NCBI GenBank assembly: GCA_022478985.1
Contig: JAKSZP010004227.1
Location: 51,394-115,393, forward strand
Origin: Massospora cicadina
Lineage: Eukaryota; Entomophthoromycota; Entomophthoromycetes; Entomophthorales; Entomophthoraceae
Length of the DNA stretch: 64,000 nucleotides
Direction: 5' to 3'
Each line of letters begins with the position of its first letter. Position 1 is the stretch's first letter. Made by a program: the position numbers and the translations under genes. Positions 18,916 through 61,748 of this stretch are shown here, piece after piece. The notes under the pieces were generated by a model. That model saw nothing but the letters and a program-made list of their open reading frames with translations. It searched no databases and had not been told where the DNA came from.

Positions 18916-18999
18916 ACTGGACAATGAGTCTCAAGCAGCTTATATGCCCTGAGGATTTTTGTAAAAACTCAGTTAATAATCTGACAGCTTGCGGGGTCC

Positions 19000-34184: not shown

Positions 34185-34205
34185 TTTTTTTAGTACTAGA
34201 TGGTT
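34185..34205 (-). mobile_element. Micro-insertion 1 in LINE1 3' UTR
   Basis: 21 bp, on the minus strand AACCATCTAGTACT plus an A-run. Flanked by GCTTCTCATTAT (34173-34184) and GCCCCTCATTAT (34206-34217), matching at 10 of 12. See micro-insertions 2-4. Confidence 0.8.
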
Positions 34206-34599: not shown

Positions 34600-35260
34600 T
34601 CTTTACCATTATCCTTAGTGGAACATGAGCTTCAGATCTTCTTGGGGGCACATTTGATGACCAACTGAGAAAAGTTTAACAAAAATCTGGATATTTACTT
34701 CATGCACGCCATTTATACGGTGGCCCATACTGCCCTCCATGGATGAGGGACCTTGTGTTTAACTTGGCAGAAGAGAAAAATGACACTGCTCAGGTGCACT
34801 TTGTGGTTGAACTCCTGGAGGATCAACAGTTTGTTGTGACTAAGTTCATGCATTGGACAAAGTCAAAAAATGTTTTTTGTTTAACTTCTGTTAAATGTGA
34901 CTCAAAAGTTGTTGAGTAACACCTCGATAATGGTCTTTCCTGCTATCTGGAAATTAAATTATACTAAATGCAATTATTTTCCCTTATGAACAACCTTAGT
35001 ATGGAAAGGCTATTGCCATTATTACCCCAAGTGGAGAAACTTCAGCGTATTTCACTTTAATTCCCCATTCAACTACCCTCATGATTGATTAGAAGCGTTC
35101 TCAATTGTCTCAGGAAACAGTGGATAGTGCATTACCCATCTGCACATACTGCCAGGCTTTTGGACATAAAGTAAATGATTGCACTGTCAAAGAGGTCGTG
35201 AAAGAGTATGCAAATGTTTCTGAGACGATGGATGAGACTATTGAAGACCAAGAATAGGTA
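34600..35260 (+). pseudogene. LINE2 ORF1, zinc-knuckle protein (broken)
   Basis: Degraded N-terminal part starting near EHELQIFLGAH, then after stops ALPICTYCQAFGHKVNDC with a perfect CX2CX4HX4C knuckle (35141-35181). An acidic end (ETMDETIEDQE) follows before TAG. Counterpart of LINE1 ORF1. Confidence 0.78.
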
Positions 35261-35829
35261 ACTAACACTACTGCCACTTTTTCACTGGGTAAAACAGGTA
35301 AGTATTTTGCAGTTTATCCAGTGTCCCCACAACAACGTTAGCAGGCCAAACAGGCCATAAGTTAGCTTTCAAGGCGATAACCTTGGTAGTAACCTCCAAC
35401 TTGACTGTACAGATTCAGGCTGACAAGTAAAATTCCCTACATCTGCCCAGTCACAAACTGGCAGCCAATCATATTACGCCAATCACCAACCCTCAGCCCA
35501 ATCCTAATTTGGGACCAGTTCCAAACACCCAGGGCTGTGCAAATCTGCGCATGCAACCAGTATACCAAACAGAACCATGTTTCACCAACCAATCCCAACC
35601 AAGGCAAATGAATCCATTGATGTTGAACTTAAAGTGCACTGTAACAAAAAACTCTTGCTCTTATAAACAAAGCACCCAGTTCTACAGCCTTTAAGGTTGG
35701 CGACTACACTTCAGTCCCTGCAAACCAGTATGGTACTCACGGTAGGGATGCCATGGTGCCCATGGAGAGTGAAGGGGTTTGGCCAGGGGCTCTCCCAATC
35801 ACTCCTGAGGCGCGCCAGGCATCTCAGTG

Positions 35830-38694: not shown

Positions 38695-39581
38695 TGTCAA
38701 GAGAGTGTCTGTATTCCTCTCGTTCCCAGAGATGGTTTGAACTGCCCCACCACACCAACAGGGAAAAACCTGCTAACAACACAGTGAAGAGGGCTATATG
38801 GAGGGGGCAACCCCAAAAGGTCCCAGGGTGAGGGTGTAAGTTATAGTATAAATGACAAGATTACCCAGAAAGTATGGACTTGGTTAGACCTCAGAGAGGA
38901 GTCCATTATCAAGTGCATATCAGAATCAAGGATTTTTAGGCTCTCTATCTGCATATGACCTGGCTTTCCCAGAGGAACAATAAAGTCAGTATACAATTTA
39001 GATTAACCTAAATGACCAACGAAAGTTGAGACCTCCTCAGATATGTCCACACGCAGTTATCCCAAGGGACCATTTTGATAAAACGTAAAAATATGTAATG
39101 TTTTATTTAAACAAGTCGACCAACAAAGAAAAATTGGTCATGGAAAATCATAAATAAACACTTTATGGGAATCTTCATTCATCAAGTGAGGTACTGCGCT
39201 CAAACAAACCAATTAACGCAAATTACCATCAACTGTGGTACAGTAGCTCGAGTAAGCCAAACTCAATTAGTTGAAAGTAGCTAAATCCTCTAAGATTTGG
39301 TAATTTTGTAAATTGAACGGGTCTAAAAACCACATTCACCAATTAATTGTAAATTGCATCATAATTCTCAACAAAGATGGTGCATTTTAACATTGGGATA
39401 TAACGCTCCTCTGAATATCAAGCACACTCCCAGAAACAAACTGGGCATACCTTTTTTCAACTAAATGTTGGTCCAGGGTGTGTTTCAGGTCAGGCAGGCC
39501 ACCAACTTGGTTCTCTTGGCCTCATCATGCCCAGCCTTGTCTTTACAATCAGTCCCATCTATATGTCATTCATCCATGAGA
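38695..39581 (-). repeat. E3 3' LTR
   Basis: 887 bp, minus-strand start TCTCATGG (TGTCATGG in E1) and end CTCTTGACA. Pairs with 51265-52810. It is related to the E1 LTR at its start (ATCATAGATGGGAC versus ATGATAGTGGGGAC in E1). Confidence 0.92.
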
Positions 39582-39599
39582 TTACCCTCCAGTCTTTTT

Positions 39600-39960
39600 G
39601 GCCCCTCCCCTCCCCCAGGGGCTTCATCCAGGGAAAATTTTGATGGGCTTTGGCCAGTTTCATGCCGGCGATACTGGGTTTAGCCTTGGGTCGTACTGCC
39701 TCTGGAAAACGCTCATGGAATGCATCAATCAAGTCCTGTGTGAGCATAAATGCGTTCCAGTACCCAACTGTTCTCCACAGAATCAAGTACTTTCCAACAC
39801 ATCAGGTACTTAAGCCTTCTTCTTACTTGGCGAAAGGCTAAAATATCATCTACTTAAGACTCCGGTTTTCCATCCACGAGGTATGCCTCTGGGGTTTCTG
39901 GTGGGGGACCCTCAAACAACGTCAGCTTGCTTTCATGGAACATAGTAAAGATCTGAAACG
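39600..39960 (-). pseudogene. E3 chromodomain and tail
   Basis: Minus strand: FHESKLTLFEGPPPETPEA, then a chromodomain with ILAFRQVRRRLKYLMCWK and VENSWVLERIY, interrupted by one TAA near its start. The tail LIDAFHERFPEAV matches E1. This is the clearest chromodomain in the window. Confidence 0.9.
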
Positions 39961-39964
39961 ATGG

Positions 39965-41000
39965 GGGAAGATCCAACTGGTATGAGGCATGGCCCTTTTT
40001 TCTAAAGTTGCGTTAACTCCTTATCTTCTTTAAACCAAGTTTTTCTGAATGGATGCTTTGTTGAATGTTTCAGAATCAAGCATTACGAGATTACCTTCCT
40101 TCTATGCCAGACCCACAAATCTCTTATTAACGGCGTTCTCCTTATAAATCTTCATAGCTTCATCCAAATTAGTGTTGACCCCTTTGTGTGTGCTCTTGAT
40201 GAACTTGGCGATGTCCACCACCACTTCCACTTTAGAACCAAATCTGTGCTCTATGTTAAATTATAATTAAACTCATAATTAGCGAAGAAATGGGGAACAC
40301 CCAATAAAGCATGTTGGGCGTTTTTATACCTAAATTGGGCCATGGGAAGATTTGCAGCTTAATCAGAATGGTCCGCTGCTGCATAAGACCACAAAAACTG
40401 CTCAAGGCATTAATTCAAAGTTCTGTTTGCCCATTAGATTGAGGATGGTAGGCAATAGAAAGGCATGGACAAATCTAAGGAGTTTTACTCAACTTATCAA
40501 AAAATGGATGTTATTGGGGTCCACGGTCACTAACAATCTCATGTGGCACCCCATGGAGGGAAAACACGTGTAAACTAATAACTTAGACATCAGCGCTGCT
40601 GTTATTGTGGTGTTACAAAAATTAGTTGGAAAACTTAGTAAACCGGTCCACCACCATCATGAACACATCATACCCTTTATACAAGGGCAACTACAGAACA
40701 AAATTGACTGGAAGGGAAGTCCAGGTTTCTGCTGCTTTTTGGACGAGCACCAACAAGCATGAGAGAGGCTGATGGATGGGTTTTATCTTATTTTAAACCT
40801 GGAATTTCTTTGAATACCTTACCACCTGTGCAGCCAGGCCCTTCCAGTTATATGGTCGTCAGATCAGCTTCAAAGTCTTCCTCCTTCCTGGGTGCCCTAA
40901 AGTTGAGCTATCATGGTGTTTGATCACTTCCAGATGAAGCAGTCCTGCAGGAACCCATAGACGCCCCTAGAAACATATTCATCTCATAAATTACATGGAA
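39965..41000 (-). pseudogene. E3 integrase (broken)
   Basis: Minus-strand blocks: SLPVNFVL then GYDVFMMVVDRFTKF (around the first catalytic position), VPHEIVSDRGPQ (second Asp) and AYHPQSNGQTEL (Glu), then a post-core region. The first catalytic Asp of the usual LDF is Asn here (VNF). Stops in each segment. Confidence 0.87.
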
Positions 41001-41199
41001 CCCTTAATTATAGCCTCCTATTTCAGATTGCATTTAGCTGGCACCATAGTGTATTCCGCTGATAGTTACTGGGAAAGTGCAGCCTTTCTGAACACACTAT
41101 ACTTCTCCAAGCTTTCCAATGAAGCAAAAACTGGCACACATGTCATGGTGGAGGGTCGCTTAAATGCCACTTTACCATGAAGAATCACCAAAGTTTGTT

Positions 41200-41700
41200 G
41201 TAAAACTACATCTCATTAGTATAAGAGGATTACGCATGGTTTCACTTCAGAGCATAGGCTAAATCATTCCCTTGCCCTTTACAGAATCATAGGAGAACAC
41301 AATCTGGGCAAGGGTCTCATCCACCAGGTTTGCCATGGAATTAAAATGTGAGGAGTCTGGTAGTACAAAAAAGGCATGATGATCCATCTGGACGCGGAGT
41401 GACGTAGAAAACCTTAGATTATGGCGCCAATAGATCAGCGCTTCCACTACCGTCAATTGTGCTTTGTCATATACTGCGTCTATTAACTTGGGCAGGAAAT
41501 ATTCTAAGAAAAAGACCTCACGGGATGCTTGACGCCACTTCACCCACCTGATATAGCGCAGCAGCTATGGAGAAATTTAAAGATTAAGGCCACTATATAA
41601 TCCCTCTTAAGGTCACGTGATGGATAATTGACGTGGACAGCGAAGTAATCTTCACTGCTTGTAAGGCATCCTCTAGTGTATAGGACTACTAAAGAATTTT
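41200..41700 (-). pseudogene. E3 RNase H (broken)
   Basis: Minus 41543-41259 contains AQLTVVEALIYWRHNL and QMDHHAFFVLPDS, which match the EALSYWRHHL and following blocks of E1. The DAS core upstream is badly decayed. Confidence 0.72.
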
Positions 41701-41739
41701 GCACTAATATCCTTATATAAAGGCGCCACTACTCATAAA

Positions 41740-42310
41740 GACTTGGTGTAAACTTCTTAAGGAAGGTGTAAGCCCAAAAATCTCTTCTACTCCTTAACTG
41801 AGGTTGGAGAGGGCCAATTACAAATTGCCTTCTCCTTACACAGAATGATTAGTTGGCCCTGGTTGAAATGACGTTACCCAGTAAGGTGACCTGGGACTTG
41901 AAAAGCTCACTTTTATCTTCTGGCTACTTTGCCACCCTCAACGTCTCAACTACTTGCCACAGGTGGATTGCATGGGATGCAGGATAAGGGTAAAACACCA
42001 AATTTTCATCCATGTAGGCTACCAAGCATACACCCAACAACTCCTTCAAGGCTTCATCAATATGTCGTTTGAAGATTTTAGGCGCATTGTTGAGCCTAAA
42101 AGGAAAGACCTAGAATTTTGCATTCCCTTACTGGTCCTTATTGCAGTGAGCCACCCCTGGCCTTTCTTGATGTAATACTGATTAAAAAAATTCAAGCAAC
42201 ATAATTTGGAAAAGACCTTAGCCTTCTCACACATAGCTATCAATTTGTAACTCCACCGGTAGTGGATGCAAATCAGAGACAGTAACATTGTTCAGGTGAC
42301 CATAATCCAC
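41740..42310 (-). pseudogene. E3 reverse transcriptase (broken)
   Basis: Minus 42288-42046 has [20 protein letters not shown] then IKKGQGWLTAIRTSKG, where the first catalytic Asp (KLD in E1) is Cys. The active site reads VAYMDENLVF, so the second Asp of YMDD is Glu. The thumb follows with FLKKFTPSLYE. Confidence 0.87.
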
Positions 42311-42657
42311 GCAGGGGCGTATAGTCTTATCTGCTTTTTCCACGAAGAAAAAGGATGAGCACATTTTCAAGGTCTAGATAAATATGGCCTCCTTGGCAAG
42401 TTGCTCTGTGAACCACACATTAAAAGCTGCTTCTTCCCGTAAATTAAAAGGGTAGATGGGAGAAGAAATGTGCACCAGGTCCACTGTGATCTTGAAGTCA
42501 CAATTAAAATCATAATGGTCTGACAGGACATATGCAGTAGCCTCATCTAAGGAAGATAAATACCTTTCAAGCAAGAAGTTAAGGAAGCTTCTGTAGTGGG
42601 CTTCAGCAGAGGTGCGAGGGTGAGTTTGGGTACATTTGGCCTTTGGGTCAGATTGCC

Positions 42658-43020
42658 TTAAGTGTCAACTTCAGGCATAGGGATCACCAACTCCTGTCTA
42701 ACCTTAGCAGATAACGTCAAGGTATTCTCTTTTAAATTGGTTCTGATGTTAAAATTTTCGCCACCAATCCCTCCCAATATGATTAGGTACAGAAGATTTT
42801 GTTTTTCTGAAAAGCTTTCACTCAATTGGTAGTTGACCACTTAATAATCAATTAACCCTGAACCCTCAGGGTGGGAATACCCTATGGCACTCGCCCTAAC
42901 CATACCATCAAGTAAGCACCTTAACTCAAGATAGTCAGTTAGGTCCAAGTCAAAAAATTTCTCAGAGGCGCCAGTATTTACCAAAATGGTTGTGCTAAAT
43001 TTTCCTGAAGGGGAGTTAAG
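42658..43020 (-). pseudogene. E3 aspartic protease (catalytic Asp lost)
   Basis: The loop reads TTILVNTGASEKFFDL, where E1 has TTILVDTGATENFMDL, so the catalytic Asp is Asn. The downstream piece (42840-42658) has LIILGGIGGENFNIRTNLKE and matches E1. Confidence 0.86.
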
Positions 43021-43024
43021 GTAG

Positions 43025-43869
43025 CAGAAAGCATAAAATAACCATAATAATATTTATTGATAACATATAAGGCCAACAGCTCACCGGAGGGCTCCTCCTT
43101 AGACTTGATTACACCCCAGGATGGGTTTTTCTTACAAAGAATTGTGAAAGGTAATTTGCAACCCTTGCCAATGAGGAAACATACCCCACAGTATCTTCAG
43201 CCCATACTCACCTACATTTTTTTAATTAACGCTTGCTCCATCTATTCAGTTTTCTAAAATAATCTTAGTGGACAAGCTTGGGTTCTCAAGTGTGAAATGG
43301 TACACAGGTTTTGTTGCAATAGGGGACCCGCGTGAGATGCCATTTGATTCATTTTTATTTTAATTCCGTTAGACTGAGGCTTCAAGTGATAAAGGCAAAA
43401 TTACTGGTTTAATACTGGCTTTGACTTCACTATCTATGAACAGCACAGCAATGTCCCTTTCTGATGCGGGTTTGTTAAGCTCCCCAGGAGGGAAAACATA
43501 GGTTTGATAACTTTAATATATTCATTTAATCTCAACTTGGGGCTAGCTCCTGTGGACCTTCAAGTTCTCTGACTTGAGAGAGTATCCATGGGAGACGCTG
43601 CCCCATTACAAGCAAAATCCACTTTTCTGGAGGCCGAATTTAAAGGGTCCCCTCAGATGAGACCTCTTTGGCTAAAATTTTGAATCATAAAGCTGTAATC
43701 CTAGGACTAAACCCCTGCTGACCCTCACATTTACCCAAATCTGATTATTTTAAGAAATTGAGTCTGCAATTCCAAGGGAGCACTTGAACGCACAGGGATT
43801 CTATATATAGGGGTCATTGTAGGTCAAACTAACTTAGCCAAATTACCTGTATGATTAATTAAACCTTGG
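43025..43869 (-). pseudogene. E3 gag, inner part
   Basis: Between the protease and the E4 insertion, heavily degraded. Assigned to gag by position and by comparison with the spacing in E1. Bases 43865-43869 (CTTGG) are the left target duplication of E4. Confidence 0.5.
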
Positions 43870-44637
43870 TGTCAGACATTTGCCCTCCCAGCTTTCAAAT
43901 ATTGTTGCGAATCAAAACCAGCCAAAAAGGAGAAATGTCAGTCATTTACTGGTCCCCGATACTGCTAATGTTGATTTATATTAAAATAATTATTTTATTG
44001 GCCAAAAGACCCTGTCCAGTTCCAGTGGAACCCAACAAATTGGGTTGACACTATCTCAAATACCTCACAGGCTAATACCATAATTTAAGCAGTCAGATTA
44101 CTCTAATCATGTGATGGACTCAGGGGCATCCATTGGATGGATCTCCCCAGTCTACTACCAGTCCCATTCAAGCACAGACGCGGGGACCACCCCCTTTTCT
44201 AGGAGTTGCAGGGGTCCCTCAAGGTACAATATTTTATCTAACAGGGATCAGCTGAAATTTACTAATTCATTACCCCATGTGTATATCTTACCAAATAATA
44301 TCTCCCCATCTATCAGTCAGTCTAAGGGAAGCAAGTTTTCCAAGCTTTTGATAGGTTGAATTTTAATAATTCCATATTTTCGAATGTAACAAGCTCCTGT
44401 GACTTAAAATTGAATTCCCTTCAACCCTTAATACAGTTTAAATACAGATTGGTCAGATATAAAGAGGGTTTGGTTTATCTTATCCCCCACTACGCTTAGT
44501 AAAAAACATAGAAAACCATAAAATTACTAAGTTTTTTTAGTTTAAGTATTCTATCATATTAGTGGTATAGATCCCCTGTTATTAGATTTCAATATATCAA
44601 GCACCAAGTGAGCATCTCCTAAGGCCAAAATCCAACA
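43870..44637 (+). repeat. E4 5' LTR
   Basis: 768 bp, TGTCAGACATTTGCCC to AATCCAACA. Visibly diverged from the 3' LTR. Confidence 0.9.
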
Positions 44638-44639
44638 AT

Positions 44640-44658
44640 TGGTGCTCACTACAGGGGG
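44640..44658 (+). other. E4 primer-binding site
   Basis: TGGTGCTCACTACAGGGGG, two bases after the LTR, identical to that of E2. Confidence 0.8.
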
Positions 44659-44699
44659 CCCTGTATACCACCAAAAATCCTTGACAATAAAAACATGAT

Positions 44700-46000
44700 T
44701 ACTCTTCAGTAACAAATGCAAGCTACATTAGAGAACTCACTAGCCAGTACTTTGGCTCGCCTCAAAAGGCTTGAGCAGCACTACCCACAAGGCCCTTATG
44801 GCCCCACTAACATTCTTAAACCTCTGACTAAAGACTTTTCACGCCTGGTGATGGCAGTATCGCCTCCTTTCCTTATGTTTACGAATCTGTAATGAAAGGA
44901 ACAACTAACCTTCAAAAACCAAGTTTATCCTTCCCTGCTTAGGTCAAATGGCTCAGGAGATCATGGTTCCTCAAATGGCCATATTTACCTCCTGGATGGA
45001 GGTTAAACAAGCGCTGGCAGATGAGTTTGGTTCCAAACAGAGTTTACAATGGCAAAAAAGTCCTTTATGTGCCTCAGCCTAAAGGAGGGAGAATAAATCC
45101 CAACATTTGTTAAGCGATTCTATAGAAAAGCTCAAGCTCTGTTGCTGTTCAAAATTCTTTCCTTAGATGATGCTATTGATGCTATCGTGGCTAGCTTGGT
45201 GTCTTATCCCTCTTTAGCAATGAATATCTCCGCAGTTAAGCATACTTTCAAAACCATACGGGATATCAAAGAGGCACTACTAGCAGTGGTTGACTTTTAT
45301 GAACCCAAACTTCTTCAAAAAGCTCCAAAGCGAGAATCATCTCTGACCCCTCCAGCCTCTTCTATGGCTGTATCCCTCTGGAAACCAGCTTCTGCAGAGT
45401 GGCAGTGATCAAATATTCCTCCATCATGTGAGGATAGCCAGAAAATAGTGGCAGTTATGGAGCAGCGCTCACCTCCAGCTTCAGTCCCAACTTGCTCAGC
45501 CATTAAGTCAGTTATCACTTTGCCTGGTCTCCCTTTTGCTGAGAAGTCTTCTAAGGTAACTAAAGTATCACACCCACCTAATCCGTTGCCTCAATCCCCC
45601 TCAGCCTCAACTCAGGCTTCTTTAGTTTAAAACCTGCCCTTATGGAGAAGCCCAAGCTGGTCACTTCTAAGGCAAACGATAAAGCCAATACACTCCCAAT
45701 GCCTCCCCTAAAAATTGGTACAGCCACAATTCTCCCTTCAAAAGTCAAAAGGTATATGAGAGTGACAAAGCCCTCCCTTTTGAGGAAATTAAGCCGGTTT
45801 CTCCGCCCCCTCTTAGTAACTCGTTGTGGTGCATTGAAAATCCCTCTGATTCTGAGTCTGAAGGGGGTGGTGAAGACGCAGGCTATTATGTTTGGGAGCT
45901 CCAATGGAAGTTCAGGTTCCGCATAGATTGAGGCTGAACGAATTGATATATAGCCATATACCATGAAGAACATACTTTCACCAGTTGTTAAGGTTTTCAG
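44700..46000 (+). pseudogene. E4 gag (broken)
   Basis: Early segment ENSLASTLARLKRLEQHYPQ, then TSWMEVKQALADEFG, FVKRFYRKAQALLLFKIL and 45142-45408 ending in a DFYEPKLLQKAPKRE stretch. A Ser/Pro/Lys-rich region follows (45315-45930). I find no clear zinc knuckle. Five or more stops. Confidence 0.78.
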
Positions 46001-46104
46001 AGGAGATTGATACAGCTAGTGATGCTGACCAGATTATTGGGACAGTGATACGATCCACCCAGCAGGTTCATACCCTCTAACATATTAAAGAAAAATACCC
46101 TGCG

Positions 46105-46490
46105 ATGGCTCAACGCCTTGCTTCCACTCTCCATTTGAAGGAGGTTCTCGCCCTCTCCCAGACTTTTGGTAACACAATAATGAAGGTAGAGGTTGTCATC
46201 AATAATGTGCACATTCTAGCCAACCTTGATATGGGTGCTCCAGTAAAGGTGGTCTCATCAAAGCTCATCAATAAAATTAAGTTGGCACCTGAACTGGAAT
46301 ATTCGCAAGAGTTTGGAACTGTGGGGCCCAACAACACTCAAGTTATTGAAACCTACTCTTATTTACCCATACGTATTCAAAAGCTCCTGCTGGCTGCCCC
46401 TGCTGTAGCATTAACCAACAATGTATACGACCTACACATTGGCACGCAATTCATGATTGAGTATGACGGAATCATTAATATGAAATAGGA
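46105..46490 (+). pseudogene. E4 aspartic protease
   Basis: 127 open codons with ILANLDMGAPVKVVSSKLI (catalytic Asp codon 46228-46230; Thr of DTG is Met) and APAVALTNNVYDLHIGTQF. Almost collinear with E5. The frame then stops at TAG 46486-46488 before the linker. Confidence 0.87.
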
Positions 46491-46894
46491 ATTCTCTCTC
46501 TTCTAAATTATAAGGTTCCCCTAGTCTTTACAAACAATAAGCCTAATATGAAGAAATATATAATCGTAGTTGAGTATCCTTCTTCCGCCACCACCCTTAC
46601 TTATACCACATTGGGCAGAAACACAAAAAAGCTCCCTGACTCAGTGGAAGCTTCATAAGGCATTCCATTTTATGTGCCAGTGAGGTAGTATTCAAAGCGG
46701 GTGAAAAAAAGGTGAAAGACATCAAAATTACTATGCAAATCCCCGCAACTTCCTTCTGCACATAACAAGAAATGATGGAATAAGCCCTTTGGAACCTTGA
46801 GTGTTTCCAGTTATCCTAGACTCTGCATACCAGCGACCTATTAATCTTCTGCTGGGGAATCTCACAAACAAGGACCTGGTTGTAAAAAATCATC

Positions 46895-47735
46895 ATGAGT
46901 TGGAAAAGCCTTTTGATTTCAATTGAAGACATCCACCAAGTACATTATATCCGGTCTATGCTAGATATGGGACTACTCGCTGACCAAATGATATGCGCTT
47001 TGCCCAAAGTTCAGATTTCTGATGATCTAACTCCCGCTGAACTTGATAAAGTTAATTCCTTACTGGAACATATAGTGATAATTTCTCCAAATCTGATACT
47101 AACTATGGGCATATGAAGGGCTGGTGCCACACCATTGATATTGGTGATGCCAATACTATTTGATCCAAGCCTTGTCAGAAATCATAAGTTGAGAAGTTCC
47201 AGATGACGATGGAGATTAAACAGTTACTGGATGCAGCCCTACTGATGCCTTCTCAAAGTCCCTGTTTATCTCCACTATTTCTCATAAAAAAGAATGTTGG
47301 GCATTAGGTAGTTATGGACTACCGCAAGCTATATAACCTCAACAAGAAGGACAGCTACCCAATCCTGAGAATTGATGACACACTGGCTCAACACTCAGGG
47401 TCCTAGTTCTTTTCCGCCATGGACTTGGCTAGCGGATACTGGAAATTAAAACTTTCTCCACAAGTCCAGAAAAAGTGTGCGCTTATCTGAATTTAGGGTC
47501 TTTTCCAACCTACCTGACTACCACAAGGGTTGTGCAAAGAACCCGCATCTTTCCAGTGAGCTAGGGACCACATCTTTCAGGATTTAAAGCTTAGTTGCAT
47601 AATTTTATATCTAGACAATATCACCATCTTCTCCCAAACTTTCAATGAGCACATTTCTCATTTAAAGGAAGTATTCCAATGGTTGCGGGCCTCTTTCATT
47701 TAGCTGAAGATCCTCAATTGTACGTTCTTACAAAA
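46895..47735 (+). pseudogene. E4 linker and reverse transcriptase (broken)
   Basis: Linker 46895-47116, then VVMDYRKLYNLNKKDSYPIL, FFSAMDLASGYWKLKLSPQ, LPQGLCKEPASFQ and active site LYLDNITIF, where YLDD has become YLDN. In-frame stops in at least four places. Confidence 0.88.
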
Positions 47736-47739
47736 GAAG

Positions 47740-48420
47740 TTGGACTTCCTTGGTCACGCCATCTCCTCATATGGGATCCAGACTCTTCAAGATAAGATCA
47801 AGGTGATATCCAAGATGCCTGCTCCCAAAACCCTCCACAATATTTGGGTGTTCTTGAGCATGATGGGGTACTACCATCAATTAATACCCAAATTCCTCAA
47901 CTCAGTGAGCCCCTCATATGACTTTTATCTTAACACCCCTTTCCATTGGAGAGCGGAAAAACAAGCTTATTTTGAAACGCTAAAAAAGCTGCTTACAGCA
48001 ACGGCCTATCCTGCTTAATCCTGACTATAGTAAACCCTTCGTGCTGTTTACTGATGCTTCTGATTACGCATTTGGAGCTATATTGGCTCAATTGGATAAG
48101 AATGGGGTTGATCACCCCGTTTCATATTAGCAAGATGCTTTATAAGGCAGAACGCAACTTTAGCTTCACTGAGAGGTAATGCCTGGCCGTCTTGCTTGCT
48201 GTTATATATTATCACCTTTTTTATCTGGGACCTCATTTAAAGTAACTACTGACTACGCCTCATTGAAGTGGCTACAAAATATGAAGGATCCCTCTGGGCG
48301 GTTGGCACGTTGGGCTTTAAAGCTCCTGCACTATGGTATGACCATTGTACACTGAGCTGAGACGAGCCACATGAATTTCAATGAGTTGACTTGGCTGCCC
48401 ATCTTTTTCAGATAATAGTG
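47740..48420 (+). pseudogene. E4 RT thumb and RNase H (broken)
   Basis: 47740-48018 is the thumb/connection (FLGHAISSYGIQTL). RNase H: FVLFTDASDYAFGAILAQLD, VTTDYASLKWLQNMKDPSGR and LARWALKLLHYGMTIVH. Stops between the blocks. Confidence 0.86.
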
Positions 48421-48589
48421 AAGTAGAGCGGCTAATTGTTTTTCTAATGACCCCTGATTCTTGGGAGGATTAGGAAGAACCAGTCCAGAAGATGCTAGCT
48501 CGACATTTCTATAACACAAAGGTGGATAATGGGAATTTATAAAAGAAAGTTAGGGTGAACTGGGTACCCTACCTCCGACCCTCAGATCG

Positions 48590-49620
48590 AGTACCTGTCA
48601 TTATGGATTCTCATACCCTCCTATGGCATAGTGGAGTGCGGAAAACCTATGAGTTGTAAAAGAACGCTACTATTTGGAGGGTATCATGGAGACCATTGTC
48701 AAAGTCTTGGATGTTGTCTAACATGCAAAAAGCAATCCAGCTTCAAACCCAAGTATCAACATCAACCTACCACCCCTCAACAGCCTTTCCACACAATAAG
48801 TCTCGATGTCGTTGGCCCTCTACCCCAAACTATGGGTGGATATAATAGAGGTTGGGATTGATCACTTTACCAAATAGGTCAAAGCAGTGGGTATCTCAGC
48901 TCAAATGGCAAAAGCCACTGCCACTTTCCTCCACTAGTATATCTTTCCCTAACACGGTTGCTCCCAAGTTTTACTCTGTGATAATGGTAAAAACATTACC
49001 TCCGGAGTGTAGGGCTCTCGTGACTTCCATGGGGATGTAACAGCTCTTTTCTGCCCCCTACAACCTTCAACCAATGGTACCGTGGAAAGAGCCAATGGGA
49101 CCTTGGTTTCTATATAATAGAAAATGGCCACTTCTGACCCTCTTCACTGGGATTAGTACTTTTCAGAGCCCTCGTGGCCTACCATGTTAGTTACTAATGG
49201 ATCCTTAAGATGTCTCCTTTCCATGTGTTGTATGGATGGGAACCTGGGGTGCCAGCATTATTAGATAAAGACATATTCACTGATAGGACTGACCTGGAGC
49301 AATCCCTGAAGAAGTTGGCTCAGCACGTCATTTATCTATAATCAGAGGCGATGACCAACTTGGCAAAAACTGTCACAAAAGAGATTCAAGCTACTAAATT
49401 GCTATGGGCTCCTCTTCCTTCCAAGTATCAGACTTGGTGCTTTACTAACACAACGGTATCACCCCTAGAAGAGATAAACTCTTGTCTATTTGGGAAGCCC
49501 TTTTGTAGTTACTTACAAGAGATGAGAGGAGTACTCCATCAACTCCCTTTGCTACCAGAGTTACCATCCATCGTGTACATGGCCACTTCCTACGGCCCTA
49601 TTCACCCCCAACATTCTTGA
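48590..49620 (+). pseudogene. E4 integrase (broken)
   Basis: Zinc region LLWHSGVRKTYELLK with a later C..C pair (TCKKQ). Core: FHTISLDVVGPLPQTMGGY (first Asp), then a degraded second block (VAPKFYSVIMVKT in place of ...LCDNGKN) and a broken Glu block. The 49351-49620 frame is the C-terminal region. No chromodomain. Confidence 0.83.
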
Positions 49621-49629
49621 GGGGGGTGA

Positions 49630-50399
49630 TGTTGGATATTTTCCCTCCAAGCTTTAAGTTAAGAATGTAGCGGGTCAAAACTGGCCAAAAAGAGGAAATG
49701 TCAATAATTTACTGACCTTTTGTATTACTAATATTGATTTAAATTCTATTAATGATTTCATTGGCCAAAAGGCCCTGGACGTTTCTCAATGGAACCCCAA
49801 GAATTTGGGGTAACACTATTTCAAATACCTTGCAGGCAAATACCATATATTCAAGCAGTCAAATTACTCCAACTAAGCGGTGGACTCTGGAGCGTCCATT
49901 GGATGAATCTCCCCCATCCACTACTAGTCCCATTCAAGCACCTACGCGTGGACCACCCACATTTATAGGCGTGGCGGGGGTCCCCCAAGGTGCAATATTT
50001 TTATCTAACAGGGATTGGCTAAAATTTATTAAGTCATTACCCCACGGTTATGCCTAGCCAAATAATATATCCTTATCTATTGATCAGCCTAAGGGAAGCA
50101 AGTTTTCTGAGCTTTAATAGTTTGAATTTTGTTGTTTCCTTATTTGGAATGTGACAAAGTCTTCCGAATTACATAGAATTCCCTTCTTCCCTCAATTCAG
50201 TTTAAGGATAGATTGGTCATATATCAAGAGGGTTTATTTTTATATATTCCCCCGCTACACTTAATGAAAACATAGAAAATCCTAACTTGCTAAATTTTTT
50301 AATTTATTTATTTTACTATATTAGTTGTATAAAACCCTGATTGTTGAATTTAAGTAAATCAATCACCCAGTGAGCATCACCTGAGGCCAAAATACAACA
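49630..50399 (+). repeat. E4 3' LTR
   Basis: 770 bp, TGTTGGATATTTTCCC to AATACAACA, preceded by polypurine tract GAGGGGGGTGA. Confidence 0.9.
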
Positions 50400-50404
50400 C
50401 TTGT

Positions 50405-51264
50405 GGTTAGACCCCATTTGGCCCTTGCAATTCTTTGAAACCAAAGGTATGGAAGTGAAGGAAGCTTTCAATTTCAAAAGGATGCTCAAGTTTTCTGGGC
50501 AGGTATTTATAGTGGTCAGTGTGGGTGAAACAATGACAGTCAAATGACTTGCCCCCTCTCCGGTTTGGGTGGGGGAATCACCACAAAGATTTTCAATCAG
50601 ATGTGCGAAATTAACGTGGTAATCCTGCTATATAAGAGTGTTTCTTTTGGGAGGATCAATTTTGGAAAAAATAAAGAGTTACTAGGTCAGATACTGTAAA
50701 AGCCTGGGCTCAAGCACAAAATCATTTAAATATTGCCCTAAGGGGAGCCCACTTGCCAAATAGTAAAAAAAATCATAGAAGGTTTAAAAGAAGCAACGTC
50801 AGGATGACGTGCTTCCAAAAACTTGTCCAAACCTTTCACTGACTTTCAATGATGCGGCTGTGCATGGAACACAGTAGACACCCAATCAGCTGCACTAGTG
50901 ATAAGTGACACAGTAAATCAACCCTTAAAACTATGGATGAGAATTTTATAGATTTTCAAGATAGAGGCTTCTGAAGCTATGTATCTATAGCCAACTGATT
51001 TAAAACTATACTTCTGGGGTAGGTCTCTAAATGCCAGCAGGATCTCAAAAGGTTTTAATTCACCAGGAACAAACAGGAAGGGTAGGGACTACATTTGGCT
51101 GTGCCAAGAAGAATTTTAAGCTAAACCAACAGTAAACCGTTTGAAAATGATGTGGTAAGCAGCATACTGACCATGACAAATGGCCTGCGCACCTAGATGA
51201 CGCTCAGAGAGAGCCCTGCATGGATAATTTGGTTGAGCATATAATAAAAGGCTTGGTTGACTAA
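50405..51264 (-). pseudogene. E3 leader and gag, outer part
   Basis: Resumes E3 after E4. Heavily degraded. Minus-strand sequence next to the LTR reads TTAGTCAACCAAGCC, where E1 has TCAGTTGACCAACCCC, so the post-LTR site is partly conserved between E1 and E3. Gag assignment is by position. Confidence 0.5.
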
Positions 51265-52810
51265 AATCAAGAGATTGTCTGTATCTTCTTCATTCTCAGA
51301 GAGGTGGTGGGAAATTCACCACCACACTAACAGGGGAAAACCTGCTAGCAACACATGGAAGTGGGACCCACGGAGGGGGCAACCCCAAAAGAGCATAGGA
51401 TGAGTGTGTGAGTTTTAGTATAAATGACAAGATTAACCAGAAAGGTATGGACTTGGTTGGACCCCAGAGAGGAGTTCATTATCAAGTGCAGCTCAGAATT
51501 CAGGATTTTTAGGCTCTCTATCTGCAGAGGACTTGGATTTCCCAGAGGGGAAGGAGAGTCAGAATACAATATAGATTATCCAAAATGACCAAAGGAGATT
51601 GAGACCTCCTCAGATAGGTCTAAACACTGTTACCCCAAGGGATCATCTGATAAAATGTAAAATAATGATATTTCTATTTATACAAGTCGACCAACAAAAA
51701 AGGTTTGTCTTGGAAAATCACCAATAAACACTTTATTGGAATCCTCATTCATTGAGTGAGGTACTGCTCCCAAATAAGCCAATAAACAAAGATTACCATC
51801 AGCCGTGGTACTGTAGCTTGAGTAAGCTCAAGCTCAAGTAGTTGACTGTAGCTAAATCCTCTCAGATTTTGTAATTTTGTAAATTGAACAGGCCTTAAAA
51901 CCCCATTCACCAATTAATTGTAGTAACCCGTCATAATTCTAACTAAATAGTGCGTTTTAACGCTGGGATATAAAGCTCCTATGAATATCAAGAACATCCC
52001 CAGAACCAAACTTGACATACCTTTTTTCAACCAACGTTAATCCATGGTGTGCTTCAGGTCAGGCAGGCCACCAATGTAACGGATCAGGTGCCTCCTGATC
52101 CATACATTGTTTTGGATCAAGTGGTGTTCGATCCAAGTGTGGCCCTGATTCAATGGGCATTGAACACAGTAAGTTCAGAGCTGGGAAAATTCTCCATCCC
52201 AAACCTGAATCACATCAGCAGAGTGATGACAAGTTTACGCACGGCGTAGATGGTGATCTGGTGGGATGGGGAAACTTCACTAACATTGTGGTGGTTGGGG
52301 CAAAAAAGAGCTTAATGAAAAGAAAGTCTTATTCCATATTAGCAGTGCACTATTTAGGGGAGGACGTCACAGCCCTGTAGGGCAGTTGCGTCTTCTATGA
52401 TGAAAAAGGAATTTGAATAAAGAATATTTTCTCGCTAAAAATAACAATTTTAATTAAAAGAATTATAAGAGGATTAGATCAAAACTATGAGCTCAACCAG
52501 TGAGATCAGTGTGGCGTTGGTGTTGTTCTCAGCCCTTTCCTGGTCCCAGATGCTGCTGTTGATGTGCAGTGTCATGGTAACAGTGGTATGAGAGTATGTG
52601 GAAATGATGAGACATGGCGGTCAGGTTTGGGGATGGGCCTCTGCAGGTCTGTAACTAGCATGGTCAGTAACTAGGCTCTTACTGCCCAATTCATTCATTG
52701 CATACTGGCGTAAACCTGCCCATTACAAAAAAATTTGGTTCTCTTGGCCTCATCACGCCCATACTTCTCATTGTAATCAGTCCCATCTATGATGTCATTC
52801 AACCATGAAA
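51265..52810 (-). repeat. E3 5' LTR with a 653-bp insertion
   Basis: Partner of 38695-39581. The repeat is collinear except for 52075-52727, which is absent from the 3' LTR. The inner edge (about 51265) is degenerate. Confidence 0.88.
52075..52727. mobile_element. Probable solo LTR inside the E3 5' LTR
   Basis: A 653-bp insertion, proven by comparison with the uninterrupted 3' LTR (GGCCACCAACTTGG). It begins TGTAACGG and ends CATTACA, so TG...CA with short inverted ends. The flanks ACCAA and AAAAA could be a decayed 5-bp duplication. No polymerase gene. It starts with two GATC-rich near-palindromes, GGATCAGG/CCTGATCC and GGATC...GATCC. No internal region is present, hence solo LTR; a small DNA transposon is the alternative. 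Confidence 0.65.
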
Positions 52811-53750
52811 GCAGAGTAAATGCTCTGCATCTGTGGTCACACTTCCAAGAGGGGTCTCCCTGCTTTCTTTTACACTCAAGAATTCATTGACATGTTATTA
52901 CAACTACTCGGTACCCCACCATCCAAATTACCATTGCTTGTGTTGACTATCTTATTATTCTGGACATAGCTTAACCTTTGGACACCTAGAAGGCCATTTA
53001 AAGGTATGGTCAACATTCTCTATACAGCCCAGAGTTCGCGCTCATGTATGGAAATTCTTGAAGTGGGTATATTGCACTACTGAATGTTCTAATGCCTCTC
53101 AATTGCCATGTGCAGTATGTTTTATCCATGGGTTTTTAATCCACTGTATGTAAGAATGTTCGCCATCTCAGGAGATATGGATTAAAGAATTAATTTCTTT
53201 CACAGGTTACAAAGCAGGCATTTAGCCTGTCTAAAAACATCATTGCTTTTACCACGAATTTACCATTCCTCCATCTTTTCATGCTTAAATTGTAGCAATT
53301 GCATTATGGATGTTACATACCATCATATTGGATGACTTTTCAGGCACTGCTTCCACCCTTTGTGAATCTGTCTGTTGCTTCTGCTCCCACCTTGTTGACC
53401 ACTTTTAAATCTTGGTTGTTTGGCTCCATACCACCATGGCAAAACTTTTTTGAATTCCTCATGGTTCCCCATGTAATTCCTAGTTATGGACCCTTTCCTT
53501 CATTTGTGTTTTGTACTGGAGTATGACTTCCTTGAAACTACCCCTCTTTCTAATACTGGCGGTCCTTCTAGCAACAAAATTTAGCTCTGACTCCTCTGGG
53601 GTGCCTTTTCATATGTTTTTATGTTTCTTCCTTATTTTAACCAGTAGGTCCTTCCCCTGGTTGTCCTTCCCTAGTATAAAATTAAAATTAAAATATTATA
53701 TCGTATTATATCATAATAAAATAAAATAAAGAAAAATTATCAAAATAAAA
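52811..53750 (+). pseudogene. LINE2 ORF2 C-terminus and 3' UTR
   Basis: Continues LINE2 after E3. 53299-53526 and overlapping frames match the SIALWRIHNIVLDALF region of LINE1 (AIALWMLHTIILDDFSG here). The 3' UTR holds GGTCCTTCCCCTGGTTGTCC (53647-53666) and the AT tail. Confidence 0.83.
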
Positions 53751-53754: not shown

Positions 53755-55570
53755 ATATCTAAACATAACGCTCTGCAAGAAAAATGACAATAAACTTGAA
53801 CAAAGATAAAACAGACCAGGTGAAAAAGCTTTAAACTGTTAACTGGCCATGGCGAAGATGAAGGGTGAGGAAGCCACTTCCTCAGCAATATCTTCTTACT
53901 CCTATAATAAAGTGCAGGCCAAATCTGAGATAAAGGGCATAGGGGTACCAGATGTATGGGTTCCAATATCTTTTTTTAGTACTAGATGGTTGGGTTCCAA
54001 TATCTTCTTAGAAGGGAATTTAAAAGAACAGACGCATGTGAAAAAGGCCACCAATATACTCTGCAAAAATATGTTTTGCTTAAAGATGGGCGTCTGGAAG
54101 TTTAACAAAGGCGGAGACGTTGGTACATGTGATTTTTAGTTTGGGTTCTTTCCACTTCTATAATATTTTGGATTGTTTCACAGACGTTTTGGTGCATTTT
54201 AAGAAGACTGTAGTTACCTAAAGGGTTAAGGATATCTAGAATACAGAAGTGAAGCTAGATGCTTTGCTAGCATGTTGAAAGACTTATCTGTAGCATTGTG
54301 GAGGTAACAATAATCAGTTAAAGCAGCCGCTTCAACAATAAGATAATGATGCTTCAGAATGGCTTGTCATTTATGAATGGGGCATAAAAAAGAGGGTAGA
54401 ATTGGGCGTTGTTACTAGTATTTGAAATTTTCAAAATGGAGAATGGGAGTTTTAATGTGGTCCCTAATTTTGAACCTCAGCTATAAGGCCCAGGGACTAT
54501 AATGAGATTGAATCAGGGAATTGACATAAGTTAAGTCTTATCAATAAAATTTGAAGATACTTGGGATTGAATGGTGGTCCAAAACTCCTCTTGATTATTT
54601 ATAAAATTCCTGATGTCTGAGGCCTGTTGAGGATATTAGAGGAAGAGATTTAAGGGTGCTGTCCTGAATACTGAGCAGATAAGGAGGCTCTCAGCAAGGT
54701 AAACTAAGTATTTTCCATTGGAGTGGATCTAGAGATAGAGCTGGCATCAGAAGCATTTTTGGCGGTATTCCAACAAGTCTTTTTGGTGTGATTTGAACTT
54801 AAACTTATAAGGAAATTTGACATCCATTGTTAACGCGCGCCTGGAAGAAAATGGTCAGGTGTGTTTTCAATTTAGAAATGCATTGTATTCTTTATTTTCT
54901 GTGTGTTAAGGGGTGACAGTAGCAGTATCATTGGGATCCATGAGGAGCTCAGAAAATCTAGTATCAGTGAAGTGGAGGATGCTTGAGCCATAGACTAAAA
55001 ACCTAATACTAGATCCTCATACAACACCAAACTCTGGAGGTAGATAAAAGTTTAAAAAAGTCGCCACCATAATGGTGTCAGTGGGTTGCCAATTATGAGT
55101 CATAAGGATCATAGTATTTTTATAAATTTGGTTTCTGTCTATGCGGCAGTATCCTCCTAAGATTGGAAATTATTATTAAAAGATCCCTCAAAACAACATA
55201 AATTAATTAAGCCAGCTGGCGCAAAAGTGGCAGTGGTGAGGTTAATTATTGCTTTGTCAGCATATAGAATAAGTCTCCCATAGTCAAAAATAAGGCAAAA
55301 TAAATTTTTATTTGAGGAAGGGCAAGGGGGTGGGTGAAAATTGTGTGTATTTGCACTAGCTGGAGTGCTAAGCACCCTGGAGGGACTTAATGGAAGTTTG
55401 GGGTTTGTAGACTAGTTGAACTAGTATGAACCAGTTTATCTTTTAGGTGTGAAAAGATAAGGGGTTGTGCACTGCTGCTCTAGTATGGGGCAGCAGGCGA
55501 TGGAACTGATGATATAGGCGGTGGCCATTGTTTTGGAAGAATGTCTTGTTTTAAGTAATCTATAATAAAA
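53755..55570 (-). mobile_element. Retroposon copy B (protein-only, decayed)
   Basis: Minus-strand relative of copies A and C. The start region reads SSVPSPAAPY (C: SLALPPATPV). An RRM segment has FDYGRLILYADKAI and FAPAGLINL. The 3' end, CCATGG...CACCTGGT, matches A and C, but the terminal TGTCCGTCC tail is absent and LINE2 sequence abuts instead. Heavily mutated; edges approximate. Confidence 0.72.
53973..53990 (-). mobile_element. Micro-insertion 3 in retroposon B
   Basis: 18 bp, minus strand ACCATCTAGTACTAAAAA, flanked by a perfect 16-bp duplication TGGGTTCCAATATCTT (53957-53972 and 53991-54006). Confidence 0.93.
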
Positions 55571-57138: not shown

Positions 57139-57155
57139 CTGCCTCAGAAATATTC

Positions 57156-59045
57156 GATTTATTCGAGGTATGCCAACCAGGGGACGGACAGTACCAATCC
57201 CAACAGTCAAAATGGCAAAACAAACTACTAACCAGGTGGGAAGCAGAAACTGCTTAACCCACCATGGCAGAGGGTGAGGAGGGGTCGGGGGGTTGGTTTT
57301 CAGAAAGACCCACCTTGATCAAGGGGTTTTGGTTACAGTACCAGATCAGAGCAGAGAGCCAGGGCGTTGGGGCATCTGCATAGTGGGGGCTGAGGTCAGC
57401 GTAGTAGGAGTTTTCCACTTCTGCATCAAGATAATGATGGGAAAGTGTTTCAACAAAAGCTGCGAGGAGAACTTCAGCTTCTTTGCGGGCTTCAGGAAGT
57501 TGGGTGAAAAGGGAGATACTGTGGCGGGTGATTTTGGCTGAGGGTTGAATGAAGCAAGCGTTGTGACATTCATAACAGCGATTTCAGCATAATCAAATAG
57601 TTTTGAGATGTCACTGCAGGGAGATTCAGGGAAGTCTGGGGGGGAAGAAGATGGTGGGCAGGCCATGCTGAAGCTGAGCCACTGACTGGGCCACCGCGGT
57701 GCTTAGTTTTGGGCACTGAGGAGAGGCCACCGCAGCTAAGGCGAGCTGGAGGTCACTTTGGAAGGGGGCTGTATTGGGTAGAGGAGCAAAATGGCGAGGG
57801 GTAGGGGTTTCATCGAAGTCAGGAAGGAAAAATTCTGCCCAACCATAATTGCCATGGCAGAGAGGTTGACCTGTATGCTTACTAATGAGGATATTACCTG
57901 ATTCGTCAGTTTCAGCCAATAGATCCCATGGATTTTGGTTCACTGGAATAGTGGCATTTAGATTTGAGTGGGTAGGATTGGGCGAATGGGCAGCTGCTTG
58001 GGTACCAATAGTGGTCCAAGCATTGCTTTGATTGGCTGGGGTAGATTTAGGTGGGAGAGTGAGGATGAAGGTTTTGGTGGGGCTGATTTTCCATGTGGGC
58101 CCACTGAACGAGAATGGAGGGTGGGAGGGGACAGCAAAGCGCCCCATACTGAACCTCCAGAGGGGGGCTCAGAAGCTGCATCAGCGGATTTGGCCTTAGG
58201 GCACGCTCTTTTTGCATGGTCGAGGCCAAAGTAGAGGGAACAAATCTGCCTACCATTATTGACCCGAGCCCAAAAGAAATGATCAGGCGCTGCAGCCACA
58301 CTAGCGCGGGGTGGGATTTGTTGGGCTATGGTAGGGTGGTGTGGTATGATGGTGGCTGTTGCACCAGGAGCAGCAAGGCGTTCTGCACCAGATGGAATGG
58401 CAACGATGAGGTTGGGCTGAGTGCCATAAGCCATGAGCCCCGCGACCAACTGGTCATAGAAAACCTGGGGTGGAAGGTGGGATGGGAGATTTGCAAAGGA
58501 TACCACTAGCGTGGTGTCTGGAGGGAGGCGAGTACGGGTTGTGGGAATGGGGGTTTTTTTATAAATTAGAGGAGTTTGTGCTGCCGCTTCAGCATCCTCC
58601 TCAGATTGGAACCCAACGTCAAAGTAGCCCTTAAAAGGGCGGAAGTCTATTAAGCCAGCTGGCGCAAAGGCTGTAGTGGCTGGGTCAGTAATTGCCTTAT
58701 CAGCATATGGGAACAAACGCCCATAGTCCACTCTGAGGCAATAGCGAATAGCAGAGCGAGGGAGGGCGAGAGGATGGGGGCGAGAAGGGTGGACGCGCGC
58801 CAGGTGGTGCGCTAAGTCCCGTGGGGGGACAAAACATTTGGAAGCAGTGGTGCGGGCTGTTTGAACCCGTCTGAACGCGCTCGCCTGCAGGGCGGAAAAC
58901 GCTAGGTGGGGGTGCACTGCTGCCCCACACTGGGGTGGCAGGCGGCAGAGCCAAGGACATCAAAGAATAGGTTTGGACAGATGGCTGTGGATAAATAAAC
59001 TTAAATTTAAAATCGTTCAAAAGTGACTTTGAGCGGTTAAAGAGT
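57156..59045 (-). mobile_element. Retroposon copy C (protein-only, youngest)
   Basis: 1890 bp with a perfect 17-bp target duplication CTGCCTCAGAAATATTC (57139-57155 and 59046-59062). The minus-strand 3' end reads TGTCCGTCCCCTGGTTGG then CATACCTCGAATAAATC. It carries a single coding region and no RT or endonuclease. It keeps many CpG and GC-rich blocks (for example GACGCGCGCC near 58792), unlike every other element here, so it looks recent. It is full length judged by alignment of both ends with copy A. Confidence 0.93.
57346..58963 (-). pseudogene. RRM/zinc-knuckle protein of retroposon C
   Basis: Start MSLALPPATPVWGSSAPP (ATG at 58963, minus). The next frame, open 58917-57958, carries an RRM-like domain: YGRLFPYADKAI, FAPAGLIDFRPF, the RNP1-like KGYFDVGFQSEEDAEAA and LVVSFANLPSHLPPQ. 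The knuckle is SLYFGLDHAKRAC, with the second Cys of CX2C now Tyr. A third frame (58147-57626) gives QNPWDLLAETDESGNILIS and LQLALAAVASPQCPKL, and a fourth (57666-57346) the C-terminus. Only frame changes, few stops, break it. By layout it is a nucleic-acid-binding ORF1-like protein; I know no named family for the full architecture. Confidence 0.82.
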
Positions 59046-59062
59046 CTGCCTCAGAAATATTC

Positions 59063-60675: not shown

Positions 60676-60689
60676 AAAACAGAGAACTC

Positions 60690-60826
60690 GAAAAAAATTA
60701 TTTGAGGTGGGTTGACCTTGGGACAAATATACCACACCAATAATGTTTTTCTAGCCAGTACAGGTTTTGAACTCAAAACTTGCACTAGGGGTGGAAGCAG
60801 TTTTACCCAGTCAGCTAACCACCCTT
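60690..60826 (-). mobile_element. SINE2, tRNA-derived
   Basis: 137-bp minus-strand copy of SINE1. Target duplication AAAACAGAGAACTC (60676-60689) and GAAACAGAGTACTC (60827-60840), 12 of 14. Box A is damaged (TAGCTGACTGGG) and box B reads AGTTCAAAACC. The 3' tail is as in SINE1. Confidence 0.93.
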
Positions 60827-60890
60827 GAAACAGAGTACTCAAGATAGGGTTAAAATTGATGTAAACTCAACCTTTTTATGTTTCTTTTTA

Positions 60891-61731
60891 TTTATTTAAT
60901 TTATTCATTTATTTGGGGTAGGCCAACTGGGATGGACACTACTGGTATGTACTAGATGGAACGGGAGAGGGGGAAAGTGAAGTAGGAGCGAGATTCAGGC
61001 ATTCTAGAGTAGATGAGCTACTCCTGTTGCCAGCTGGTACCGCCAGATGTACATGGGATACCCTATTATAAGGGGGATTCCCCTATTATGGAGCAGGTGT
61101 GAAAAAAGGGGTCCACATGTAGAAACATTACTAGGAACCATGATTTGATGAGTCTTTATTGTCTTGGCTTCATGTATCCATATAGCCAGGCTTTGAAGTT
61201 TTCTAGTAGATGTAAATGAAATCTGCTGATTGTCTCATGAATGATTAGCACAGTTTTCCTTGAAGGCATCCAGCACTATTGTATGGATCGTCCACAAAGC
61301 AATGGCAACTATCTGGGAGTGGAGCATGGGTGATATTGAAGATTTGAGCTGGATTGCGAGGAGGCTTCTAGATATTAACAGCTCCTGGTTGTTGTAGGTT
61401 TTAAGCTAACACGCAACTTCTCACCTTATGTCTTTAGATGGTGGGCATTCTTCATGGCGTTGATGTAGGGTGGCGTCCCCTCCACACACTGCGCATGTTG
61501 CATGAAGAGATTTGGAGTGGTCCGCTGTCCTGTAGGTTCATTTGGACAGTGTCAGGTGTTTTCTATTACCCTTTGATGGAGGAGTGGATGGTGTGCAAGC
61601 CTCCATATTGCCTTCTATGCCGTGAGGTCATAGGAGATATCCAAGACATCCAGGTAGTTAATTCTTACCATGTCCAGGGCCATGTCATGTGTGTCCCTCT
61701 GAGGGGTGGTGGTTCAAATTCCTTAGCATGA
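60891..61731 (-). mobile_element. LINE3, 5'-truncated 3' fragment
   Basis: 841 bp with a 17-bp target duplication TTTTATGTT(T/G)CTTTTTA (60874-60890 and 61732-61748), 16 of 17. Minus-strand reading gives VAIALWTIHTIVLDAF, matching LINE1 and LINE2 C-termini, and a Cys-rich CAVCGGDATLHQRHEECP. The 3' end is TGTCCATCCCAGTTGGCC then TACCCCAAATAAATG and an AAAT-rich tail. The RT itself is missing through 5' truncation. Confidence 0.9.
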
Positions 61732-61748
61732 TTTTATGTTGCTTTTTA

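Follow-up and report, generated by a model that had tools for sequence, protein, structure and literature searches.

The stretch of DNA analysed here (the window) comprises 64 kb and consists mostly of nested retroelements; in the analysis, which centred on these, no host gene came to light. It belongs to an assembly of 1.47 Gb in 16,968 contigs, and its host was taken, by protein matches, to be the cicada fungus Massospora cicadina: a protein search with the longest open frame of one of its retroposons returned 17 matches, all 17 of which are annotated as M. cicadina. The assembly size is close to that published for this fungus, 1.488 Gb, of which transposable elements make up 92% (PMC9584336). 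The elements of the window that are relevant here are the following:

6959-7090, plus strand: SINE1, tRNA-derived; tail 7052-7090, target-site duplications 6944-6958 and 7091-7105
15522-17441, plus strand: retroposon A, a relative of retroposon C; tail 17393-17441, 5' end approximate
29351-34290, plus strand: LINE1, decayed; tail 34240-34290, 5' end not fixed
29351-30124, plus strand: ORF1 of LINE1, with zinc-knuckle-like CIFCCAFGHKAQTCP
about 30500-34190, plus strand: ORF2 of LINE1, with endonuclease-like start and reverse transcriptase (RT)
34332-53680, plus strand: LINE2, decayed and split into parts at about 34332-38696 and 52809-53680; tail 53640-53690
about 53790-55560, minus strand: retroposon B, a decayed relative of retroposon C; ends approximate, set by eye
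57156-59045, minus strand: retroposon C, full-length, protein-coding, no RT found; tail 57156-57199
57139-57155 and 59046-59062: target-site duplications of retroposon C, perfect over 17 bp
57958-58959, minus strand: longest open frame of retroposon C, 333 aa, with zinc-knuckle-like CSLYFGLDHAKRACP
60690-60827, minus strand: SINE2, a second copy of the SINE1 family; target-site duplications 60677-60689 and 60828-60840
60891-61731, minus strand: LINE3, 5'-truncated; tail 60905-60950, target-site duplications 60874-60890 and 61732-61748

LINE1 combines in its ORF2 the APE endonuclease and RT that characterize a LINE; when its stitched pieces were compared with Pfam, RVT_1 scored 6.7e-11, above the cut-off, and Exo_endo_phos 0.037, below the cut-off. 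When proteins were searched with ORF1 of LINE1, not one among 84 candidates reached E 1. LINE2 was identified by its matches to LINE1, its start being set from a weak 11-bp repeat. Inside LINE2 lies a pair of repeats (38697-39579 and 51267-52808, 83-87% identical) that are probably the LTRs of an inserted element, with further Gypsy-like copies between them. LINE3 is a third, diverged LINE with 51% identity to LINE1 and to LINE2. SINE1 resides inside a Gypsy-like element, and SINE2 is 92.5% identical to it. Elsewhere in the window, at 10454-10654, four tandem repeats of 50 bp lie within a repeated element.

Retroposon C codes for one long protein that is now broken in frame at no fewer than two places and contains stops. 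The profile of this protein covers positions 58957-57224 of the element, and the C-terminal part that remains beyond the longest open frame is read in other frames at 57254-58168. In the three open frames of retroposon C that were scanned, Pfam detected neither RT nor EN, and the protein reached the cut-off of no Pfam family. A sequence search against the PDB gave no match at E 1, and structure prediction was poor (pLDDT 44.9). Retroposon A shows 59% identity to C over ungapped columns, and retroposon B was recognized through an ORF match at 55489-54740 (iE 2.7e-17); a search of the window with a profile of LINE and retroposon tails found no recognisable tail at the end of B. Over 131 columns, ending in the zinc-knuckle-like motif, the retroposon protein can be aligned with ORF1 of LINE1 and LINE2 (hhalign E 1.7e-4), and a direct profile search against LINE ORF1 yielded only iE 1.4. 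With regard to a possible origin of the retroposon from a LINE whose ORF2 was lost, the analysis gave an ORF1 match of probability 50 and a C-terminal part of about 300 residues for which profile searches gave no match in the LINEs of the window. With an ORF1-like protein and no detected EN or RT, retroposon C has the make-up of a HAL1-like element. When a collection of genome contigs was scanned with a retroposon protein, none of 25 stretches encoded a relative.

The preliminary description of the window had placed one common 3' tail on three LINEs, two retroposons and two SINEs, and all seven tails were found at these places. Because of their target-site duplications, the tails are the true 3' ends of retroposon C, SINE1, SINE2 and LINE3. 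The duplication of retroposon C matches at 17 of 17 positions (5 of 1000 random segments were as good, some of them overlapping the site), and the element is therefore a complete insertion of 1,890 bp. Corresponding values are 15/15 for SINE1 (equalled by 2/1000 random segments), 12/13 for SINE2 (11/1000) and 16/17 for LINE3 (32/1000, or 17/1000 within a nearer range). The weak repeat of 10 bp seen for retroposon A (69/1000 as good) does not convince, and no convincing target-site duplication was detected for LINE1 and LINE2 either (444/1000 and 118/1000, respectively).

That one tail occurs in three element classes is borne out by profile searches of both strands of the 64 kb. When only the three LINE tails went into the profile, the four matches that came next were retroposon C (E 2e-6), retroposon A (2.7e-6), SINE1 (0.0037) and SINE2 (0.1). 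A profile of the SINE tails only retrieved LINE1 (E 0.043), retroposon C (0.11) and LINE3 (0.36), followed by a non-tail match at 0.49. When each of the five LINE and retroposon tails was omitted in turn, it was regained in all five cases by the profile of the others (E 9e-9 to 3e-5), and the best non-tail match of the LINE and retroposon profile had an E value of 0.33 in the window. In pairwise tests against a background of 1500 random window segments each way, all ten pairs among LINE and retroposon tails fell below 0.01, as did three of the ten pairs of a LINE or retroposon with a SINE (LINE1-SINE2, LINE3-SINE1 and retroposon C-SINE1). The tail positions given in the preliminary description hold; the SINE ending has to be amended to ACCTC(G/A)AATAA, not ACCCCAAATAAA.

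Genome-wide, the exact tail-core pattern TCCCCTGGTTGGCN{0,6}CCAAATAAA has 128 matches, compared with none for the reversed control, and 90 of the 128 were fetched. Upstream context was available for 39 tail loci: LINE ORF2 lies ahead of 31 (E <1e-20) and a retroposon ORF ahead of four (E 1e-8 to 3e-105), four being unclear, and these proportions carry no meaning because nine of the 39 loci had been picked for unusual tails. Consensus tails were derived for one LINE family (TTGGAAGTGTCCATCCCCTGGTTGGCCTTCCCCAAATAAA; 84 copies, six of 90 having been left out as atypical), for the retroposon (TTGGTACTGTCTGTCCCCTGGTCAGCATACCTCGAATAAATC; 20 copies) and for SINE1, which ends in GTCCCAAGGTCGACCCACCTC(G/A)AATAATTT (32 copies from 30 loci), the copies being split at the G/A site with A as the plurality letter. 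For the retroposon 3' end, a first look at the genome gave 2,813 candidates, 40 of which were scored (97-100%); for SINE1 it gave 1,992 candidates, and 40 out of 40 scored at 96-100%. Among tail loci L089 to L178, many substitutions fall on CpG-type sites (TCGG to TTGG or TCAG; CCG to CCA or CTG), and the column counts hint at cytosine methylation of the repeats of this fungus. Viral contigs were also scanned with a 14-base tail core; the best profile score among 88 stretches had an E value of 0.042, which we took as chance.

As a group, these genome-wide consensus tails still align, in keeping with the preliminary description; for the LINE and SINE1 taken alone they do not do so convincingly. 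None of 20000 shuffles was as good as the LINE-retroposon alignment; among 20000 segments drawn at random from the window, its own tails included, 33 were. The retroposon-SINE1 alignment was equalled by 1/20000 shuffles with G and 4/20000 with A at the split site and, with G, by 22/20000 random window segments. Direct alignment of the LINE and SINE1 tails is unconvincing, 10705/20000 shuffles being as good with G and 585/20000 with A, and this result counts against the simplest form of the earlier claim.

Two further SINE families, X and Y, emerged when 202 kb of fetched loci were scanned with a tail profile that contained no SINE. This profile detected X at ten places (E 9e-7 to 0.011) and Y at five (E 1e-10 to 7e-6), and scored SINE1 copies only at E 0.04-1. 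SINE X occurs at loci L195, L216, L204, L192, L199, L205, L203 and L214, at the first of which it sits directly behind a SINE1 copy; it has a B box only, a head that differs from those of the other SINEs, and the tail CGGTATCGTCCCCAGGTCGGCCCACCTCGAATAAA. SINE Y is about 280 bp long, with 4,425 first-look candidates, and was found at L198 (1145-1421), L206, L191, L200 and L210, with genome copies at L238-L257. Its head is tRNA-like, with the B box GGTTCGATTCC and no A box by pattern, and matches the full-length tRNA model at 21.1 bits (E 0.047), below the gathering threshold of 29. The SINE1 consensus contains A and B box patterns, TAGCCGAGCGGG and AGTTCGAAACC; these and the boxes of X and Y we take to be Pol III boxes by their general consensus. 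ARAGORN reported no tRNA in the window or in SINE Y, and Rfam no tRNA match in the window, SINE1 or SINE2. Target-site duplications were seen by eye in many of 32 printed SINE1 copies and at the X/Y loci L191, L198 and L216. Short and non-coding, with A and B boxes and with dispersed copies flanked by duplications, SINE1 has the traits of a tRNA-derived SINE. The flanks of the SINE copies at L191 and L200 are near-identical, so that either this part of the genome is duplicated or the assembly contains it twice.

Not one of 5000 shuffles equalled the tail alignments retroposon-Y, retroposon-X, LINE-X, LINE-Y or SINE1-X, where the X tail is that of a single copy. The Y tail (20 copies) is very near that of the retroposon (score 43), and SINE1 and Y are only weakly alike (232/5000 shuffles as good). 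The 3' ends of X and Y are thus homologous to that of the LINE, as in stringent-type LINE/SINE pairs, and direct homology of this kind is unsupported or marginal for SINE1. As far as the alignments tell, it is mainly through SINE X and the retroposon that SINE1 is linked to the tail group; compared directly, SINE1 and the LINE are only weakly alike.

A conserved stem-loop, for which the preliminary description had proposed a covariation test, is supported across the tails of the families and not among the seven window tails alone. A first common hairpin had been suggested by five hand-written tails in which CpG was put back. For seven family representatives, taken without this change, RNAalifold predicts ((((....(((.((...)).)))..)))) with an energy of -5.91 kcal/mol. 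The mean for column shuffles is -0.35, and not one of 500 is as stable, likewise with A at the split site of SINE1. With three smaller sets of tails, 4, 19 and 1 of 500 shuffles were as stable. Pairing is kept in 58 of 63 stem cells, compared with 16-44% for slid partners, and four stem pairs are changed on both sides, which 7/500 shuffles reach; these counts use the same seven rows from which the stem-loop was derived, two of which (the LINE and L180) had been retrieved with a search pattern that leaves no choice at column 36. The covariation score is 0.397 vs. 0.213 (1/500 shuffles), and further pair types occur in an unremarkable number (72/500). The cleanest compensation is an A-U pair in the LINE that is U-A in two retroposons, SINE1, X and LINE3, and U-G in Y; three stem pairs, some of them compensated, are at or near CpG-like sites in a genome that seems prone to decay of the C-to-T type. 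Permutation of the outer helix gave moderate support (496/20000 with ten tails, 268 with eight and 1314 with five).

To reveal the stem-loop, a comparison has to be made between families, by their consensuses or by individual copies. Folded one at a time, tails have at best a slight advantage over shuffles (z 0.6 to -1.8), and for the seven decayed window tails RNAalifold proposes three pairs, none of them compensated. Among 84 LINE copies, GGAAG/CTTCC is kept in 26 and AGAAG/CTTCC is present in 27, which fits decaying copies. Two other candidate stems were rejected: CGG/CCG in the LINE tail showed no association among 89 distinct genome tails (Fisher p 0.65 and 0.80), and TATCAG/CTGGTT in the window tails was equalled by 2880 of 5040 permutations.

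Homologous tails are thus present in all classes at true insertion ends, with a stem-loop kept across families. We consider it likely, with a probability of roughly 0.8, that the members of one retrotransposition guild have this tail in common as their 3' recognition element. LINEs would supply endonuclease and reverse transcriptase, and their enzyme would begin target-primed reverse transcription on RNAs whose 3' end consists of a hairpin (about 30 nt) and, after it, a terminal repeat resembling AAAT. The RT-less retroposon, coding only for a LINE ORF1-related protein with a C-terminal extension, would be copied in trans via the same hairpin, as would at least three SINE families that have it. 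In this reading the hairpin would be bound and recognized by the LINE RT; the LINE, not another element, would be the source of the enzyme, and the retroposon protein would take part. A more far-reaching version, which we regard as rather unlikely, sees in the retroposon more than a parasite: within a split system it would contribute the ORF1 function, with a protein that is abundant, coats hairpin RNAs and hands the LINE RT to all classes, and the retroposon, not the LINE, would have donated the tail of the SINEs.

Common descent alone, without any special recognition, appears improbable. According to this explanation the retroposon would be what remained of a LINE after ORF2 had gone, still with the LINE 3' UTR, and the SINEs captured the retroposon tail, in line with the relatedness of the retroposon protein to LINE ORF1 and with a SINE1 tail that is nearest to those of SINE X and the retroposon, not to that of the LINE. 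Comparison of tails with element bodies speaks on both sides: between LINE1 and LINE2 (464/803 body windows as good as the tail), LINE2 and LINE3 (281/783) and LINE2 and retroposon A (121/184) the tail is no better conserved than the body, as common descent would have it, whereas for LINE1-LINE3 (0/801), retroposons C-A (9/1874), LINE3-C (0/147) and LINE1-A (0/154) it outdoes all or nearly all body windows. The compensated stem changes and the occurrence of the tail on three SINE families with different heads likewise argue against descent as the sole cause.

A signal for mRNA 3' ends needed by all transcripts, i.e., an AATAAA-like polyadenylation signal with a C-rich element, would account for the AATAAA-like letters that end nearly all tails. 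The SINEs, however, bear boxes of Pol III type (A and B in SINE1, a B box in X and Y) and can be expected to do without 3' processing of the Pol II type, the similarity spans about 38-47 nt altogether and thus reaches well upstream of AATAAA, and the copies inspected end at the AAAT-like repeat without a long poly(A), so that we consider such a signal very improbable. Chance or low-complexity likeness of C-rich and AAAT-rich ends is hardly credible as a general explanation. It would suit the E value of 0.1 for SINE2 alone and the seven of ten LINE/retroposon-SINE pairs that were not below 0.01, but the best E value of the LINE and retroposon profile in the reversed window was 1.2, the reversed core pattern is absent from the genome, and most consensus comparisons were equalled by only 0-4 of 5000-20000 shuffles. 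Judged by these comparisons, chance is refuted for the LINE-retroposon and retroposon-SINE likenesses and may still account for that between LINE and SINE1 taken alone.

If the tail is indeed a shared recognition element, one enzyme family would serve several classes of passengers, one of them coding and with thousands of candidate copies; this would contribute to an explanation of how a genome that is among the largest in fungi has, in part, grown. Should another autonomous LINE bear ACCTCGAATAA, that LINE would be the better partner for SINE1. To our knowledge, the choice of RNA by the LINE enzyme is understood for only few pairs; the variant tails of LINEs, retroposons and no fewer than three SINE families, with their compensated stem changes, form a natural set in which the bases that the enzyme reads could readily be identified.

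The shared-tail system is not described in the first part of the M. cicadina genome paper (PMC9584336), the word "SINE" does not occur in a further genome paper (PMC11105155), and a literature search outside subscription journals returned no text combining "Massospora" and "SINEs". LINE/SINE pairs of the stringent type are well documented, e.g., in a survey of 58 SINEs with a common 3' end (PMC3747384); the eel pair and SINEX-3_CR/L1-1_CR of Chlamydomonas are of this type. As in such pairs, the SINE has the LINE 3' end with a stem-loop near it and copying by the LINE enzyme is inferred; unlike in those, the tail is found in M. cicadina on no fewer than three SINE families and also on a third class, which codes for a protein but lacks RT. 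In fungi, the 3' end of the tRNA SINE AfuSINE2-1a of Aspergillus fumigatus resembles the 3' UTR of the LINE I-1_AF (Tad1) (PMC5063351), a system which, as described, differs from the present one in its lineage and in that more than two classes are involved here. The retroposon resembles HAL1 (half-L1), a non-autonomous LINE relative of mammals that likewise codes for an ORF1-like protein only (PMC5753468); in contrast to what is reported for HAL1, it is fungal, has about 300 extra C-terminal residues and shares a hairpin tail with SINEs. It is also reminiscent of HeT-A (with TART/TAHRE), a gag-only non-LTR element without pol, which it is thought to borrow (PMC5537684). Unlike HeT-A, which is described from telomeric arrays, the retroposon is dispersed and flanked by target-site duplications, and no head-to-tail arrays were seen in the window, where its copies are interspersed in both orientations. 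LINE/SINE pairs and HAL1- or HeT-A-like elements have been described before; a tail common to all three classes appears to be a new variation, and the M. cicadina system may best be explained as a LINE/SINE pair of the stringent type to which a coding passenger similar to HAL1 or HeT-A has been added.
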